Shown: positions 8,458 to 37,862 of the stretch, piece by piece
Position numbering within the stretch: the stretch's first letter is position 1
Layout: each line of letters starts with the position of its first letter
Source of the DNA: Bacillota bacterium
GTDB lineage: Bacteria > Bacillota > UBA4882 > UBA8346
Assembly (NCBI GenBank): GCA_029776205.1
Contig: JAKOTQ010000023.1
Location: forward strand, 1 to 64,000
DNA: 64,000 nt
Direction: 5' to 3'
The notes under the pieces: model-generated
What the model was told of the DNA's origin: nothing
Database searches by the model: none
The model's input: only the letters and a program-made list of their open reading frames with translations
Made by a program: the position numbers and the translations under genes

Positions 8458-8638
8458 ATCTTGAGCCTCCTTTGGATTGGTTTTTTGGAAGTGGTATACT
8501 TTATCCTATTCAACAAAAGGAGGCCTGGGACTGTTCCGTTGGCACAAGTCTCAGAGTGATTCTTCAGTGTACATTTTAAGTCCAGCAGTATATTTTTCCA
8601 AGAGCGGGTTAACCTACCCATAAAAGAAGGTGGGATTG

Positions 8639-9190
8639 GTGAAAAAAATCAAATTAAAACCGATATTTTGGATTCGACTCGGGGTCATCACCCTGATCGT
8701 TGGGGTGACAATTGGAATAGGATATCGATACCCGGAAGTAACCCGGGAAATTCAAAAAATTTTTTCAGCGGTTTCGATACAACAGTCTGAATTATGGACT
8801 TTGGAAAAAATAACCGTTTTCAAGAAATGTCGGCATCAAACTGTAGAACAATCAACATTTGCATCAATCAAAGCTTTAAAAGATTTTGTGATGAAACATC
8901 CTCAGTGGGAAACGGTTGGAAGCGGCCCCACTAAATTTCAAACCAAAATTGAGGTTCACGATTTTTGCTCCGATTGTCAGCAGTATCAATTTTTAGGGAT
9001 TAAGTCCGGAAAGGTTGTAATTATGCGGGGAACGCCGGCGAAACCGGGTCCAGTCATTCAGGCTATTTCCATGGATGTTCAGCTTTTACCTGAGGCTGAA
9101 CGGGAGGATTTGCAGAGAGGCATTCCGTTTAAAGATGAAAAAGAGAAGCTTCAATTGATCGAAGGGTTAAACGGTTTAATCCTCAATTAA
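8639..9190 (+). CDS. BofC C-terminal-domain protein, probable sporulation factor
   Basis: The 183-residue protein has an N-terminal membrane anchor (IFWIRLGVITLIVGVTIGIGY) and an exported domain. Its C-terminal half, QYQFLGIKSGKVVIMRGTPAKPGPVIQAISMDVQLLPEAEREDLQRGIPFKDEKEKLQLIEGL, matches the BofC C-terminal domain. BofC in Bacillus restrains the SpoIVB signal between forespore and mother cell. The N-terminal half is not recognisably BofC, and it carries CSDC and an isolated Cys that may form a disulfide. The GTG at 8639 is chosen because GAAGGTGG lies five bases upstream. The role is inferred from the domain only. Confidence 0.65.
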   Translation: MKKIKLKPIFWIRLGVITLIVGVTIGIGYRYPEVTREIQKIFSAVSIQQSELWTLEKITVFKKCRHQTVEQSTFASIKALKDFVMKHPQWETVGSGPTKFQTKIEVHDFCSDCQQYQFLGIKSGKVVIMRGTPAKPGPVIQAISMDVQLLPEAEREDLQRGIPFKDEKEKLQLIEGLNGLILN

Positions 9191-9195
9191 AATTC

Positions 9196-9538
9196 GGGCC
9201 CGTCCGCGTGAAGCGTGACGGGCGATGAGCTACCTAATTGACCTCGCTCTTTACGAGTATAGACTAATGATTGAGACTAAGTAACAAATGCCGAAAGGGA
9301 AACTTCAAAAGGGAACGTTGCATCATCTTCTGATGAGCGTTTTGGCATTTGTCAGCTTAAAGCTCGATCATTTCCGCCGGCCAGAATGGAGCTTATGGTG
9401 ATGGCACCGCCGCTTTTCTGACCTTTGTCCGACCGGATTTTACCGGAGGAGCCTAGAGGAGCTCGGGGTAAATTCCGATCTGGGTCCCGGCCAATCGGTT
9501 TGCTCACTAATAGTATGTCGCAAGCTATTTTTTTTATA
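9196..9538 (+). ncRNA. Candidate structured RNA of about 340 nt
   Basis: The gap between the BofC-like gene and the EF-G paralogue has no convincing ORF but many helices: GCCCGTC/GACGGGC (9198-9223); ACAAATGCC/GGCATTTGT (9284-9292, 9344-9352) enclosing AACG/CGTT and CATCA/TGATG; and AAGCTC-CATT/AATG-GAGCTT (9360-9394). It ends with AATAG...CTATT plus eight T, a weak terminator. I do not recognise tmRNA, RNase P, SRP, 6S or a known riboswitch. It could be a leader of the EF-G gene or a free RNA. Confidence 0.4.
9509..9536 (+). terminator. Weak intrinsic terminator after the RNA candidate
   Basis: AATAG (9509-9513) pairs with CTATT (9525-9529), followed by a run of T. Confidence 0.5.
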
Positions 9539-9674
9539 CTTTAATGGTTGGGTAATATCTACACATATCCTACAAAACCCCGTCATACTTTAGATTGGGC
9601 TTATATTGTAAAAAATTTAGAAATCAGGAGGAAATAACGGAGCCAACGCGAATTAAACCAAAAGTAACATAAAT

Positions 9675-9719: not shown

Positions 9720-11789
9720 TTGAAAAAGCATACTGTTGAAACCATGCGGAATTTAGTCCTGTTGGGACATGGTGGTTCCGGTAAAACCACACTGGCTGAG
9801 GCTATGTTGTACAGTGCGAAGGCCATCGAACGTTTTGGTAAAGTAGATGACGGAAACTCCACAATGGATTATGATCCTGAAGAAATCAAGCGGAAAATCA
9901 GTATTTCAACGTCTATTGCTCCGCTTGAGTATAAAGAGGATAAAGTCAATATCATTGATACCCCTGGTTTTTTTGATTTTGTCGGAGAAGTTAAGGGGGC
10001 GGTGCGGGCTGCAGACGTCGCTTGTATTGTGGTGTGCGCTGTTTCCGGTGTTGAGGTGGGTACCGATAAAGCCTGGGGTTATGCTGATGAGCAAAATTTG
10101 CCCCGGGTATTTTTTATAAATAAGATGGATCGCGAAAATGCTAATTTTGACAAAGTACTTACGGATTTACGCGATAAATATGGTAAAAATGTTATACCGA
10201 TTCGAATTCCGGTGGGTGCGGCTGAAACCTTCCAGGGAGTTATCGACATTTTAGAGCATAAAATGTATCTCTTGGAAGGCGGAAAAATGGTGGAAAAACC
10301 GATCCCTGCCGAATATGAAGAAAAGGTTGCGGAGTACCATCAGATGCTGACAGAAGCAGTGGTGGAAACTGACGATGAACTTCTCACCAAGTATCTGGAA
10401 GGGGAAACTATCGGTCGTGAAGAGTTGATGGCTGGTGCTCGAAAAGCTATCACCAATGAACAAGTGATTCCGGTTTTGGTCGGTTCATCCCTGAAGTTAA
10501 TCGGAATCATCAGTCTCTTGGATGCGGTCGTGGATTATATCCCGTCACCGGTGGATCGGGGCGCTATCGTCGGTGTAGACGGAACCAAACGGCTACCCAG
10601 CGAAGATGAACCTTTCTCGGCATTGGTCTTTAAAACAATGGCCGATCCTTTTGTGGGTAAGTTAACGCTGTTCAGGGTGTTTTCGGGTGTGGTCAAATCT
10701 GATTCACAGGTGTACAATTCCAGCCGAGAGGCGATGGAACGCATTGGCCAATTGTTCCTGATCAAGGGAAAAACGCAGGAACCTGTCGATCAACTGTGTG
10801 CCGGAGATTTGGGGGCTGTTGCTAAGCTGCAGTATACTTTCACCGGAGATACTTTGTGTGATAAGGATAAAGTCATCGTTTATCCGCCTATTCAATTCCC
10901 GGATGCTAAATTGTCGCTGGCAGTTGAACCAAAAGCTAAAGGCGATGAAGAAAAGATCAGCGCCGGGCTTAGCCGGTTGGTGGAAGAAGATCCCACCTTT
11001 AAGGTTGAAAAGAATTCGATCACCCATGAATTGGTGGCTTCCGGCATGGGAGATCTCCATATTGAGGTCATCACCAGTAAATTGCAGAAGAAATTCGGTG
11101 TGAGCGTTAACTTAAAAGAGCCGAAAATTTCCTATAAAGAGACTATTAAAGGTACGGTGAAAGCTGAAGGGAAACATAAGAAGCAAAGCGGCGGCCGGGG
11201 TCAATACGGCCATGTATGGATCGAAATGAGCCCGTTACCGGCTGGCGGCGGATTTGAGTTTGTCGACAATATTTTTGGAGGCGCTGTTCCGAAAAACTAT
11301 ATCCCGGCCGTTGAAAAAGGGATTCGGGAAACCATGGAACGCGGTGTTTTAGCCGGTTATCCGGTCGTTGACGTCCGAGTGTCCCTTTTTGACGGCTCCT
11401 ATCACAGCGTGGATTCTTCGGAAATGGCGTTTAAAATTGCAGCTTCGATGGCTTTCAAAAAAGGTTTTATGGAAGCCAAACCTATCTTGCTGGAGCCGAT
11501 TATGCGGCTGGAAGTCACAGTTCCCGAAGAATACATGGGCGATATTATTGGCGACCTCAATAAAAAACGCGGAAAAATCCTGGGAATGGAACCCGACGGC
11601 AAAAATCAGATTGTTAAAGCGTTGGTGCCCCAAGCTGAACTCGCTAAATATGCGATTGACCTGCGTTCGATGACGCAAGGACGGGCTGATTTCGAAATGG
11701 CTTTTGACCATTATGAAGAGGTTCCGTCACACTTGGCAGAACATATCATTGCTGAAGCCAAAAAACATATGGTGGAAGAGGAAGAATAA
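9720..11789 (+). CDS. Elongation factor G-like GTPase (EF-G paralogue)
   Basis: The 689-residue protein has the full EF-G layout: a G domain with P-loop GHGGSGKTTL and INKMD, domain II, and domains III-V through QGRADFEMAFDHYEEVP. It differs from translocating EF-G in two G-domain motifs: the P-loop is GHGGSGKTT instead of (A/G)HIDAGKTT, and G3 is DTPGFFDF instead of DTPGHVDF, so the catalytic His is replaced by Phe. Such EF-G-like proteins usually accompany a standard fusA elsewhere; its role is uncertain. The start is TTG after GGAGGGGG. It is a single-gene unit, with an inverted repeat upstream and a terminator downstream. Confidence 0.9.
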   Translation: MKKHTVETMRNLVLLGHGGSGKTTLAEAMLYSAKAIERFGKVDDGNSTMDYDPEEIKRKISISTSIAPLEYKEDKVNIIDTPGFFDFVGEVKGAVRAADVACIVVCAVSGVEVGTDKAWGYADEQNLPRVFFINKMDRENANFDKVLTDLRDKYGKNVIPIRIPVGAAETFQGVIDILEHKMYLLEGGKMVEKPIPAEYEEKVAEYHQMLTEAVVETDDELLTKYLEGETIGREELMAGARKAITNEQVIPVLVGSSLKLIGIISLLDAVVDYIPSPVDRGAIVGVDGTKRLPSEDEPFSALVFKTMADPFVGKLTLFRVFSGVVKSDSQVYNSSREAMERIGQLFLIKGKTQEPVDQLCAGDLGAVAKLQYTFTGDTLCDKDKVIVYPPIQFPDAKLSLAVEPKAKGDEEKISAGLSRLVEEDPTFKVEKNSITHELVASGMGDLHIEVITSKLQKKFGVSVNLKEPKISYKETIKGTVKAEGKHKKQSGGRGQYGHVWIEMSPLPAGGGFEFVDNIFGGAVPKNYIPAVEKGIRETMERGVLAGYPVVDVRVSLFDGSYHSVDSSEMAFKIAASMAFKKGFMEAKPILLEPIMRLEVTVPEEYMGDIIGDLNKKRGKILGMEPDGKNQIVKALVPQAELAKYAIDLRSMTQGRADFEMAFDHYEEVPSHLAEHIIAEAKKHMVEEEE

Positions 11790-28925: not shown

Positions 28926-28957
28926 GTATTACAATAAAACAATAATCGAAAAACGAT

Positions 28958-29267
28958 GATTAAGGAAAGTACCTTACGGAATGCCCTACAGAGAGAACGG
29001 GCCATCGGCTGGAAGCCTGTTTGGGAGATACGTTAGGGAAGTTCCCTTAGGAGTTGGCCGCTGAAATTCAGGTGACAGATGACAAACTGTTCACTGGAAA
29101 ATAGGTTGGTCCGGGAGCCCGCCGTTAATGGGATGGGGTATCGAGAAATATAAAAATTTCTCCGTACCTGAATGAGTGAGTCTTGTATAAGGCTAAAATG
29201 GGTGGTACCGCGGAATAGGCCCACGTTTCGTCCCATAAGAAGGGGAGAACGTGGGCTAATTTATTTT
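28958..29267 (+). promoter_or_regulatory. T-box leader controlling aroF
   Basis: The leader has the T-box sequence TGGGTGGTACCGCGG (about 29199-29213), stem I with AGAGAGA, and a terminator GCCCACGTT/AACGTGGGC (29219-29227, 29248-29256) followed by a T-rich run. The specifier loop is bounded by AGTA (28968-28971) and GAA (29038-29040). The codon after GAA reads UUC, which would make this a Phe-sensing leader. UAC at 29029-29031 is an alternative. Uncharged tRNA would stabilise the antiterminator and switch on DAHP synthase. Confidence 0.93.
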
Positions 29268-37192: not shown

Positions 37193-37269
37193 GGGCGATT
37201 AGCTCAGTTGGTGAGAGCACCTGCCTTACAAGCAGGGGGCCGTAGGTTCGAGTCCTACATTGCCCACCA
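37193..37269 (+). tRNA. tRNA-Val (TAC)
   Basis: Acceptor GGGCGAT/ATTGCCC, anticodon arm CCTGC-CTTACAA-GCAGG, T arm GTAGG-TTCGAGT-CCTAC, encoded CCA. Confidence 0.97.
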
Positions 37270-37276
37270 TATTTAC

Positions 37277-37354
37277 GGAGCCGTGGTGTAGTCGGTCTAA
37301 CATGCCAGCCTGTCACGCTGGAGATCGCGGGTTCGAGTCCCGTCGGCTCCGCCA
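37277..37354 (+). tRNA. tRNA-Asp (GTC)
   Basis: Acceptor GGAGCCG/CGGCTCC with G73, anticodon arm CCAGC-CTGTCAC-GCTGG, encoded CCA. Seven bases after tRNA-Val. Confidence 0.97.
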
Positions 37355-37384
37355 TCAAAAACAAAAAGTAAAAATAAAAATAGC

Positions 37385-37413
37385 TTGACAAATAGTTGAA
37401 AACAGAATATAAT
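37385..37413 (+). promoter_or_regulatory. Internal promoter before tRNA-Phe
   Basis: TTGACA (37385-37390), 17 bases, TATAAT (37408-37413): perfect consensus within the cluster. Confidence 0.9.
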
Positions 37414-37429
37414 AGTAGTTGTCTCAAGC

Positions 37430-37505
<76 letters not shown>

Positions 37506-37525
37506 TAAAATACTTCACAAAAGAT

Positions 37526-37600
37526 GCGGAAGTAGCTCAGCGGTAGAGCATCGCCTTGCCAAGGCGAGGGTCGCGGGTTCAAATCCCGTTTTCCGCTCCA
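37526..37600 (+). tRNA. tRNA-Gly (GCC)
   Basis: Acceptor GCGGAAG with TTTCCGC, anticodon arm TCGCC-TTGCCAA-GGCGA, T arm GCGGG-TTCAAAT-CCCGT, encoded CCA. Confidence 0.96.
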
Positions 37601-37613
37601 AAAAGTTTACAAC

Positions 37614-37642
37614 GTATAGACAGGTATTTTACCTGTCTATAC
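37614..37642. terminator. Perfect 13-bp hairpin between tRNA-Gly and tRNA-Cys
   Basis: GTATAGACAGGTA-ttt-TACCTGTCTATAC. A T6 run follows only about 13 bases later, so it may be a terminator or an RNA-processing hairpin. Confidence 0.6.
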
Positions 37643-37681
37643 TTAACAGATAAGGTTTTTTAGCATAATATAAAATTATAC

Positions 37682-37756
<75 letters not shown>

Positions 37757-37774
37757 AAAAAGTTTATACGGTTT

Positions 37775-37862
37775 GCCGAAGTGGCGGAACTGGCAGACGC
37801 AAGGGACTTAAAATCCCTCGGTCCAAAAGACCGTACCGGTTCGATTCCGGTCTTCGGCACCA
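37775..37862 (+). tRNA. tRNA-Leu (TAA)
   Basis: A long tRNA with a variable arm (CGGTCCAAAAGACCG), acceptor GCCGAAG/CTTCGGC, anticodon arm AGGGA-CTTAAAA-TCCCT, encoded CCA. Pieces of its 3' end recur downstream. Confidence 0.97.

Follow-up and report, generated by a model that had tools for sequence, protein, structure and literature searches.

A candidate forespore RNA with a covarying multi-arm fold, encoded between bofC and an EF-G paralogue in Bacillota

Contig JAKOTQ010000023.1 of a Bacillota bacterium (assembly GCA_029776205.1; GTDB lineage UBA4882, UBA8346) carries a bofC-like gene followed by a paralogue of EF-G, and we analyzed its first 64,000 nucleotides, hereafter the window. A sequence-only reading of the gap between these genes (positions 9196-9538) had proposed a structured RNA there, either a new non-coding RNA (ncRNA) or a leader acting on EF-G. 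We find an RNA gene sitting between the bofC-like gene and the EF-G paralogue but read from the opposite strand. Minus-strand positions 9507-9187 are likely to be a standalone ncRNA gene, with its own promoter, a terminator-like end and a conserved fold, that belongs to a family without earlier description. The features of the locus are collected in Table 1.

Strand, boundaries and promoters of the RNA gene

The stretch 9196-9538 has no coding content, the longest open stretch being 50 codons on either strand, and a protein-coding role was rejected on this ground. As first proposed, it is strongly structured. Compared with dinucleotide shuffles it folds with z-scores of -5.7 on the minus strand and -3.1 on the plus strand, and the predicted RNA itself (9187-9507, minus strand) reaches -6.2. 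Homologous loci point to the same strand. In 11 loci from host family f2 of the window's class, single-sequence folding gave a mean z-score of -5.86 for the strand opposite EF-G and of -1.08 for the EF-G strand, while RNAalifold over the same loci yielded -216 kcal/mol for the minus versus -144 kcal/mol for the plus strand. A covariance model built from the f2 class relatives (R2) has its match in the window solely on the minus strand (9342-9495, 18.3 bits, E 0.0026 in 387 kb). The proposal of a structured RNA upstream of EF-G therefore holds for its structure and its non-coding nature, but not for its strand. A congeneric genome (G001) is 85% identical overall to 9196-9538 and nearly identical from ~9340 to 9530, where conservation exceeds that of the flanking coding DNA. 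The gene order bofC, RNA, EF-G is common to the window and its f2 homologues.

The motif GHATW-N17/18-YATAMTA is found directly before the RNA on the minus strand in 8/8 family-f1 genomes tested; in G001 the equivalent promoter reads GCATA-N17-CATAATA. The consensus for scoring was GHATR with GGnnAnAnT for sigma-F and CATnMTA for sigma-G, and it was applied to the 86 distinct copies of the RNA with enough upstream sequence. Scores of at least 9 out of 10 were obtained for 70 of these copies compared with 8% of shuffled upstream regions, and full scores of 10 for 31 copies compared with 0.4% of shuffles. The place of the promoter is fixed as well, the -35 element preceding the model start by 42-51 nt in 80/86 copies. 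The RNA is thus equipped with a sigma-F/sigma-G type promoter of its own, the property that marks forespore ncRNAs as a kind and not as a homology family. In C. difficile, sigma-F and sigma-G promoters are reported to overlap in sequence (PMC7438776). The genome of the window encodes two sigma-F/G-like factors.

The U-run at 9529-9536, initially taken as the end of the RNA, turned out to be the complement of the A-rich spacer beside the minus-strand -35 box and so belongs to the promoter. A terminator-like hairpin lies at the other end (9223-9198); past it, in minus-strand direction, an A+T-rich tail containing TTTT adjoins the stop codon of bofC. At the same bofC-side end the f2 loci display a GC hairpin (CCTGGAGG..CCTCCAGG) and then TTTT, again on the minus strand.

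Upstream of EF-G, and outside the RNA, lies the motif AGGAAAT-N14-GAAT, which we take to be a sigma-H-like promoter. It is conserved in 23 of the 26 regions that separate bofC from EF-G in the class (L025-L050), and this conservation suggests that the EF-G paralogue would be expressed at the onset of sporulation. Since each has a predicted promoter of its own, the RNA and EF-G are, as read from the sequence, separate and divergent transcription units.

Table 1. Features of the RNA locus in the window, with positions and strand.
Feature	Position	Strand	Details
Non-coding RNA gene (likely)	9187..9507	-	~320 nt; predicted start ~9503-9507, predicted end ~9187-9195
-35 element	9535..9539	-	GTATA; sigma-G/F type forespore promoter; motif in all 8 f1 genomes
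-10 element	9511..9517	-	CATACTA; 17 nt from -35
P1, 5' strand	9489..9507	-	17 bp with 9225-9243; P1 covaries across homologues
Linker s1	9479..9488	-	GGGACCCAGA; contains AC, complementary to GU of s4
Arm P2	9429..9483	-	9483-9467 with 9444-9429; inner hairpin 9464-9449; homologous helices covary
Linker s2	9422..9430	-	GGACAAAGG; family consensus GRXYAAAGG
Arm P3	9379..9423	-	9423-9416 with 9386-9379, inner helices; homologous helices covary
Linker s3	9370..9378	-	GGCGGAAAT
Arm P4	9266..9372	-	Long in genus; 9372-9344 with 9292-9266, inner hairpins; length varies across homologues
Linker s4	9258..9265	-	AGUCUAUA
Reduced arm P5	9244..9256	-	4-bp hairpin
P1, 3' strand	9225..9243	-	
Terminator-like GC hairpin	9198..9223	-	Followed by CCCGAATTTTAATT (9200-9187)
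bofC-like gene	8630..9190	+	Pfam BofC_C, E 2.7e-10; convergent with RNA
Putative sigma-H-like promoter of EF-G paralogue	9629..9653	+	AGGAAAT-N14-GAAT
EF-G paralogue	9720..11789	+	Pfam EF-G domains; divergent from RNA

Distribution and covarying fold of the family

Searching the class with blastn matched only the congeneric genome, and a covariance model made from two sequences (R1) added one further family member only. The resulting early impression of a genus-only element was overturned by aligning syntenic intergenic regions. Across the window's class, a bofC-like gene and a gap of ~370-1030 nt precede the EF-G paralogue, and alignment of the f2 gaps revealed strongly conserved RNA-like sequence. 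Of 399 genomes from the phylum, the R2 model then detected the RNA in at least 42 (E <= 0.01, strict filters), a prevalence that is a lower bound, as laxer filters add one genome (G141) and a second copy in another (G060). In all, ~87 distinct copies were found. A pattern scan of named genomes returned 55 stretches, nearly all of them scoring with R2. Among the hosts are Desulfotruncus, Desulfoscipio geothermicus, Pelotomaculum, Sporotomaculum, Desulforudis, Thermincola, Carboxydocella, Fervidicola, Thermovorax, Tepidanaerobacter and Thermosediminibacter. Judging by these matches, anaerobic spore-forming Bacillota of many families carry the RNA.

The position of the RNA is stable within the window's class. 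Outside the class the neighbors vary (by eye, spoVT-like, spoIVA-like and groEL-like genes, as well as others), and the forespore promoter and a closing helix followed by a U-run are retained. Three of the copies outside the class (L090, L091 and L094) lie beside genes that by eye resemble the sporulation genes spoVT and spoIVA. SpoIVA is present in 41 of the 42 RNA-bearing genomes, the exception being 61% complete, and is absent from 62 of 357 RNA-negative genomes (Fisher p 0.005); with few non-sporulators in the sample, this association with sporulation is modest.

Several genomes hold two copies, namely at L036 (517-1339), L132 (698-1573) and L115 (1343-4327) and in G060; those of L036 and of Sporotomaculum syntrophicum (L132) are in tandem. 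Within family f1 (L025-L031) the RNA decreases in size, measuring 216 nt in G007 and G009 versus 320-374 nt in G000-G002. A TwoAYGGAY RNA motif was detected near the RNA at two loci (L117, 2924-3081; L082, 2773-2930), above the threshold in one genome and just below it in the other.

In the fold modeled from the family alignments, helix P1 closes a set of up to five arms (P2-P6), and six purine-rich linkers that are nearly identical (s1-s6; consensus GRXYNAAG) connect these elements. Nine f2 sequences, aligned unguided, show double changes in 20 of the 102 predicted pairs. An alignment of 45 sequences to R2 has 94.4% of its cells paired and compensatory changes in 83/95 pairs, with a covariation of 0.57 compared with at most 0.10 in slid controls and with 0/500 shuffles. 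For 54 sequences outside the R2 training set the values are 96.3% of cells and 69/95 pairs, with a covariation of 0.458 versus at most 0.093 after sliding. A caveat is that A5 and A6, as alignments fitted to the structure of R2, bias the absolute numbers towards the model; nevertheless, the slid and shuffled controls stay far below the real covariation.

The linkers also pair with each other. The XY dinucleotides of s2 and s3 are complementary in 100% of cases compared with 51% after shuffling (CC with GG, GC with GC), those of s1 and s4 in 98% versus 83% (GC with GC, AC with GU) and those of s5 and s6 in 94% versus 81%. No specific XY complementarity was observed for the remaining twelve linker combinations. 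In alignment A6 these three 2-bp linker stems are 100% paired. Because of the linker pairs s2:s3, s1:s4 and s5:s6, the modeled RNA contains two pseudo-symmetric four-way junctions, one formed by P1, s1:s4, P5 and s5:s6 and the other by s1:s4, P2, s2:s3 and P4. An s3:s6 helix suggested by RNAalifold, in which just 65-71% of cells pair, was replaced by these three stems. The linkers resemble kink-turns (GC-NAA-G .. GA-GC), but covariation sets the Watson-Crick pairs directly beside AAA/GGA, which favors a 3x3 purine loop. This covarying register gives no support to canonical kink-turns (L7Ae-type sites), with their three-nucleotide bulge and subsequent tandem sheared G.A pairs, at the arm bases. 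Conservation is highest in the linkers, with 1.59 bits per column, followed by the helices with 1.21 and the arm tips with 0.68.

The copy in the window is placed in the family because of its synteny, strand, promoter, arm order and R2 match, and it is by its sequence a reduced family member. It keeps the s1:s4 pair (AC with GU).

Comparison with known RNAs

No Rfam 15 covariance model matched the RNA at its curated score in the window, in 10 class relatives or in 27 loci of other families. Overlapping matches stayed far below threshold (SNORD26, 14.8 bits; sucA-II, 22.3 bits). A divergent 6S RNA, RNase P RNA, T-box or other known RNA was rejected on this lack of an Rfam match, in line with the first look at the sequence. 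6S RNA, likewise a non-coding RNA of spore-formers and of a similar size class, is encoded at two other places in the genome (RF00013) and gave no match at the RNA locus. We looked for the two outcomes named beforehand as refuting, no covariation in homologues and a clear Rfam match, and neither occurred. Of the two possibilities first raised, the new ncRNA finds strong support in compensatory covariation, lack of an Rfam match and wide distribution.

In the full-text literature searched, on forespore RNAs and structured RNAs of Clostridia and with most subscription papers outside its coverage, there was nothing that matched the RNA or its hosts. Searching for related RNAs gave CsfG, Bvs196, raiA, OLE, ROOL and GOLLD. 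CsfG, as cited in PMC9147052, is a Bacillus forespore ncRNA without identified mRNA targets; it is known from Bacillus, and the new RNA is compared with it by description only. Bvs196 is a forespore RNA of 294 nt under sigma-F/G that is reported to bind mRNAs (PMC9147052). Compared by description only, Bvs196 of Bacillus velezensis (S547 in B. subtilis) is said to base-pair with mRNAs, whereas the new RNA has conserved junctions and non-conserved loops. The raiA motif is a structured Bacillota ncRNA of ~205 nt; according to the title of Soares et al. 2024, cited in PMC12286853, disrupting it reportedly impairs sporulation. It differs in size and architecture, and the Rfam scans gave no sequence or covariance match between the two. 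OLE, ROOL and GOLLD are large, highly structured bacterial RNAs with a conserved architecture and multi-arm junctions (PMC12286853), and they form homo-oligomers. The new RNA is likewise large and highly structured with multi-arm junctions, but it is smaller than these, has other sequences and helices and lacks an Rfam match.

Novelty would lie in the RNA family and its fold, with CsfG and Bvs196 compared by description, while forespore ncRNAs in the wider sense have been described before. An RNA of ~300-400 nt, well conserved across many families of spore-forming Bacillota, is nonetheless without an Rfam family or a paper that we could find. If expressed as its promoter predicts, it would be a new RNA of the forespore from outside Bacillus. 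Little is understood of how genes are controlled post-transcriptionally in the forespore, and both known cases, CsfG and Bvs196, come from Bacillus. With a precise structural model and cultivated hosts that can be named, the question is open to direct testing.

Proposed role and competing explanations

According to its promoter, the RNA would be transcribed by forespore RNA polymerase, with sigma-F and then sigma-G, during spore formation only. Less certainly, it may act in trans as a folded, protein-binding RNA in the forespore, either as the scaffold of a ribonucleoprotein (RNP) or as a decoy for an RNA-binding protein. Because the linkers are the most conserved and the arm tips the least conserved parts, a protein-binding or architectural role fits better than that of a base-pairing small RNA (sRNA). 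A trans-acting, protein-binding forespore RNA is the most likely role suggested by these sequence features, ahead of a base-pairing antisense RNA or an EF-G leader. We see even chances for the full proposal of a hitherto unknown, ancient class of large structured, forespore-only RNAs with two pseudo-symmetric four-way junctions. In this proposal, anaerobic spore-formers of many families (Desulfotomaculum relatives, Thermincola, Carboxydocella, Thermosediminibacterales and others) would need such RNAs, as protein decoys or as the scaffold of an RNP, for the quality of their spores or for revival.

Several points weigh against this proposal. Transcription of the RNA and its restriction to the forespore are predicted from sequence alone, and its protein partner is one that we infer. 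The window's copy is divergent, with R2 covering only part of the RNA at 18.3 bits. Compared with the family, it misses s5, P6 and s6, and its s2:s3 dinucleotides (AC, GG) are merely half complementary. Its terminator tail contains a single TTTT.

Given the reported binding of mRNAs by Bvs196, the main rival is a forespore sRNA of that type, which would act on mRNAs through its loops. The new RNA is similar to Bvs196 in size and promoter type. However, the arm tips, where seed sites would be expected, are its least conserved part (0.68 versus 1.59 bits per column in the linkers) and vary freely in length, so that we regard base-pairing as unlikely, though worth keeping in view.

A role in cis is improbable. 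Here the RNA would be transcribed convergently against bofC, as an antisense RNA or by terminator collision, or its transcript would insulate EF-G from bofC. Within the class the RNA end does coincide with the bofC stop codon, but the overlap with the bofC reading frame is minimal, other genes adjoin the RNA in most families and a collision would need no covarying six-arm fold.

Slightly less probable still is a selfish or mobile non-coding element that multiplies as extra copies. Two copies do occur in several genomes, some of them in tandem (Sporotomaculum, G025), and the genomic place differs between families. On the other hand, a single copy is usual, the copies throughout retain their forespore promoter and terminator-like end, the position is stable within the window's class and no protein gene travels with the RNA.

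The weakest alternative, the plus-strand leader or riboswitch controlling the EF-G paralogue that had first been considered, can be set aside as very improbable: an RNA region does lie upstream of EF-G throughout the class and the window's plus strand also folds better than shuffles (z -3.1), but such a leader would share its strand and transcript with EF-G, while the homologues fold on the minus strand, which R2 alone matches, the RNA reads away from EF-G, whose separate sigma-H-like promoter is situated downstream of the RNA, the U-run is part of the minus-strand promoter, and outside the class the RNA lies beside unrelated genes and not beside EF-G.

Elsewhere in the window we noted a T-box leader at 28947-29238 on the plus strand and, at 37193-37859, clustered tRNA genes.
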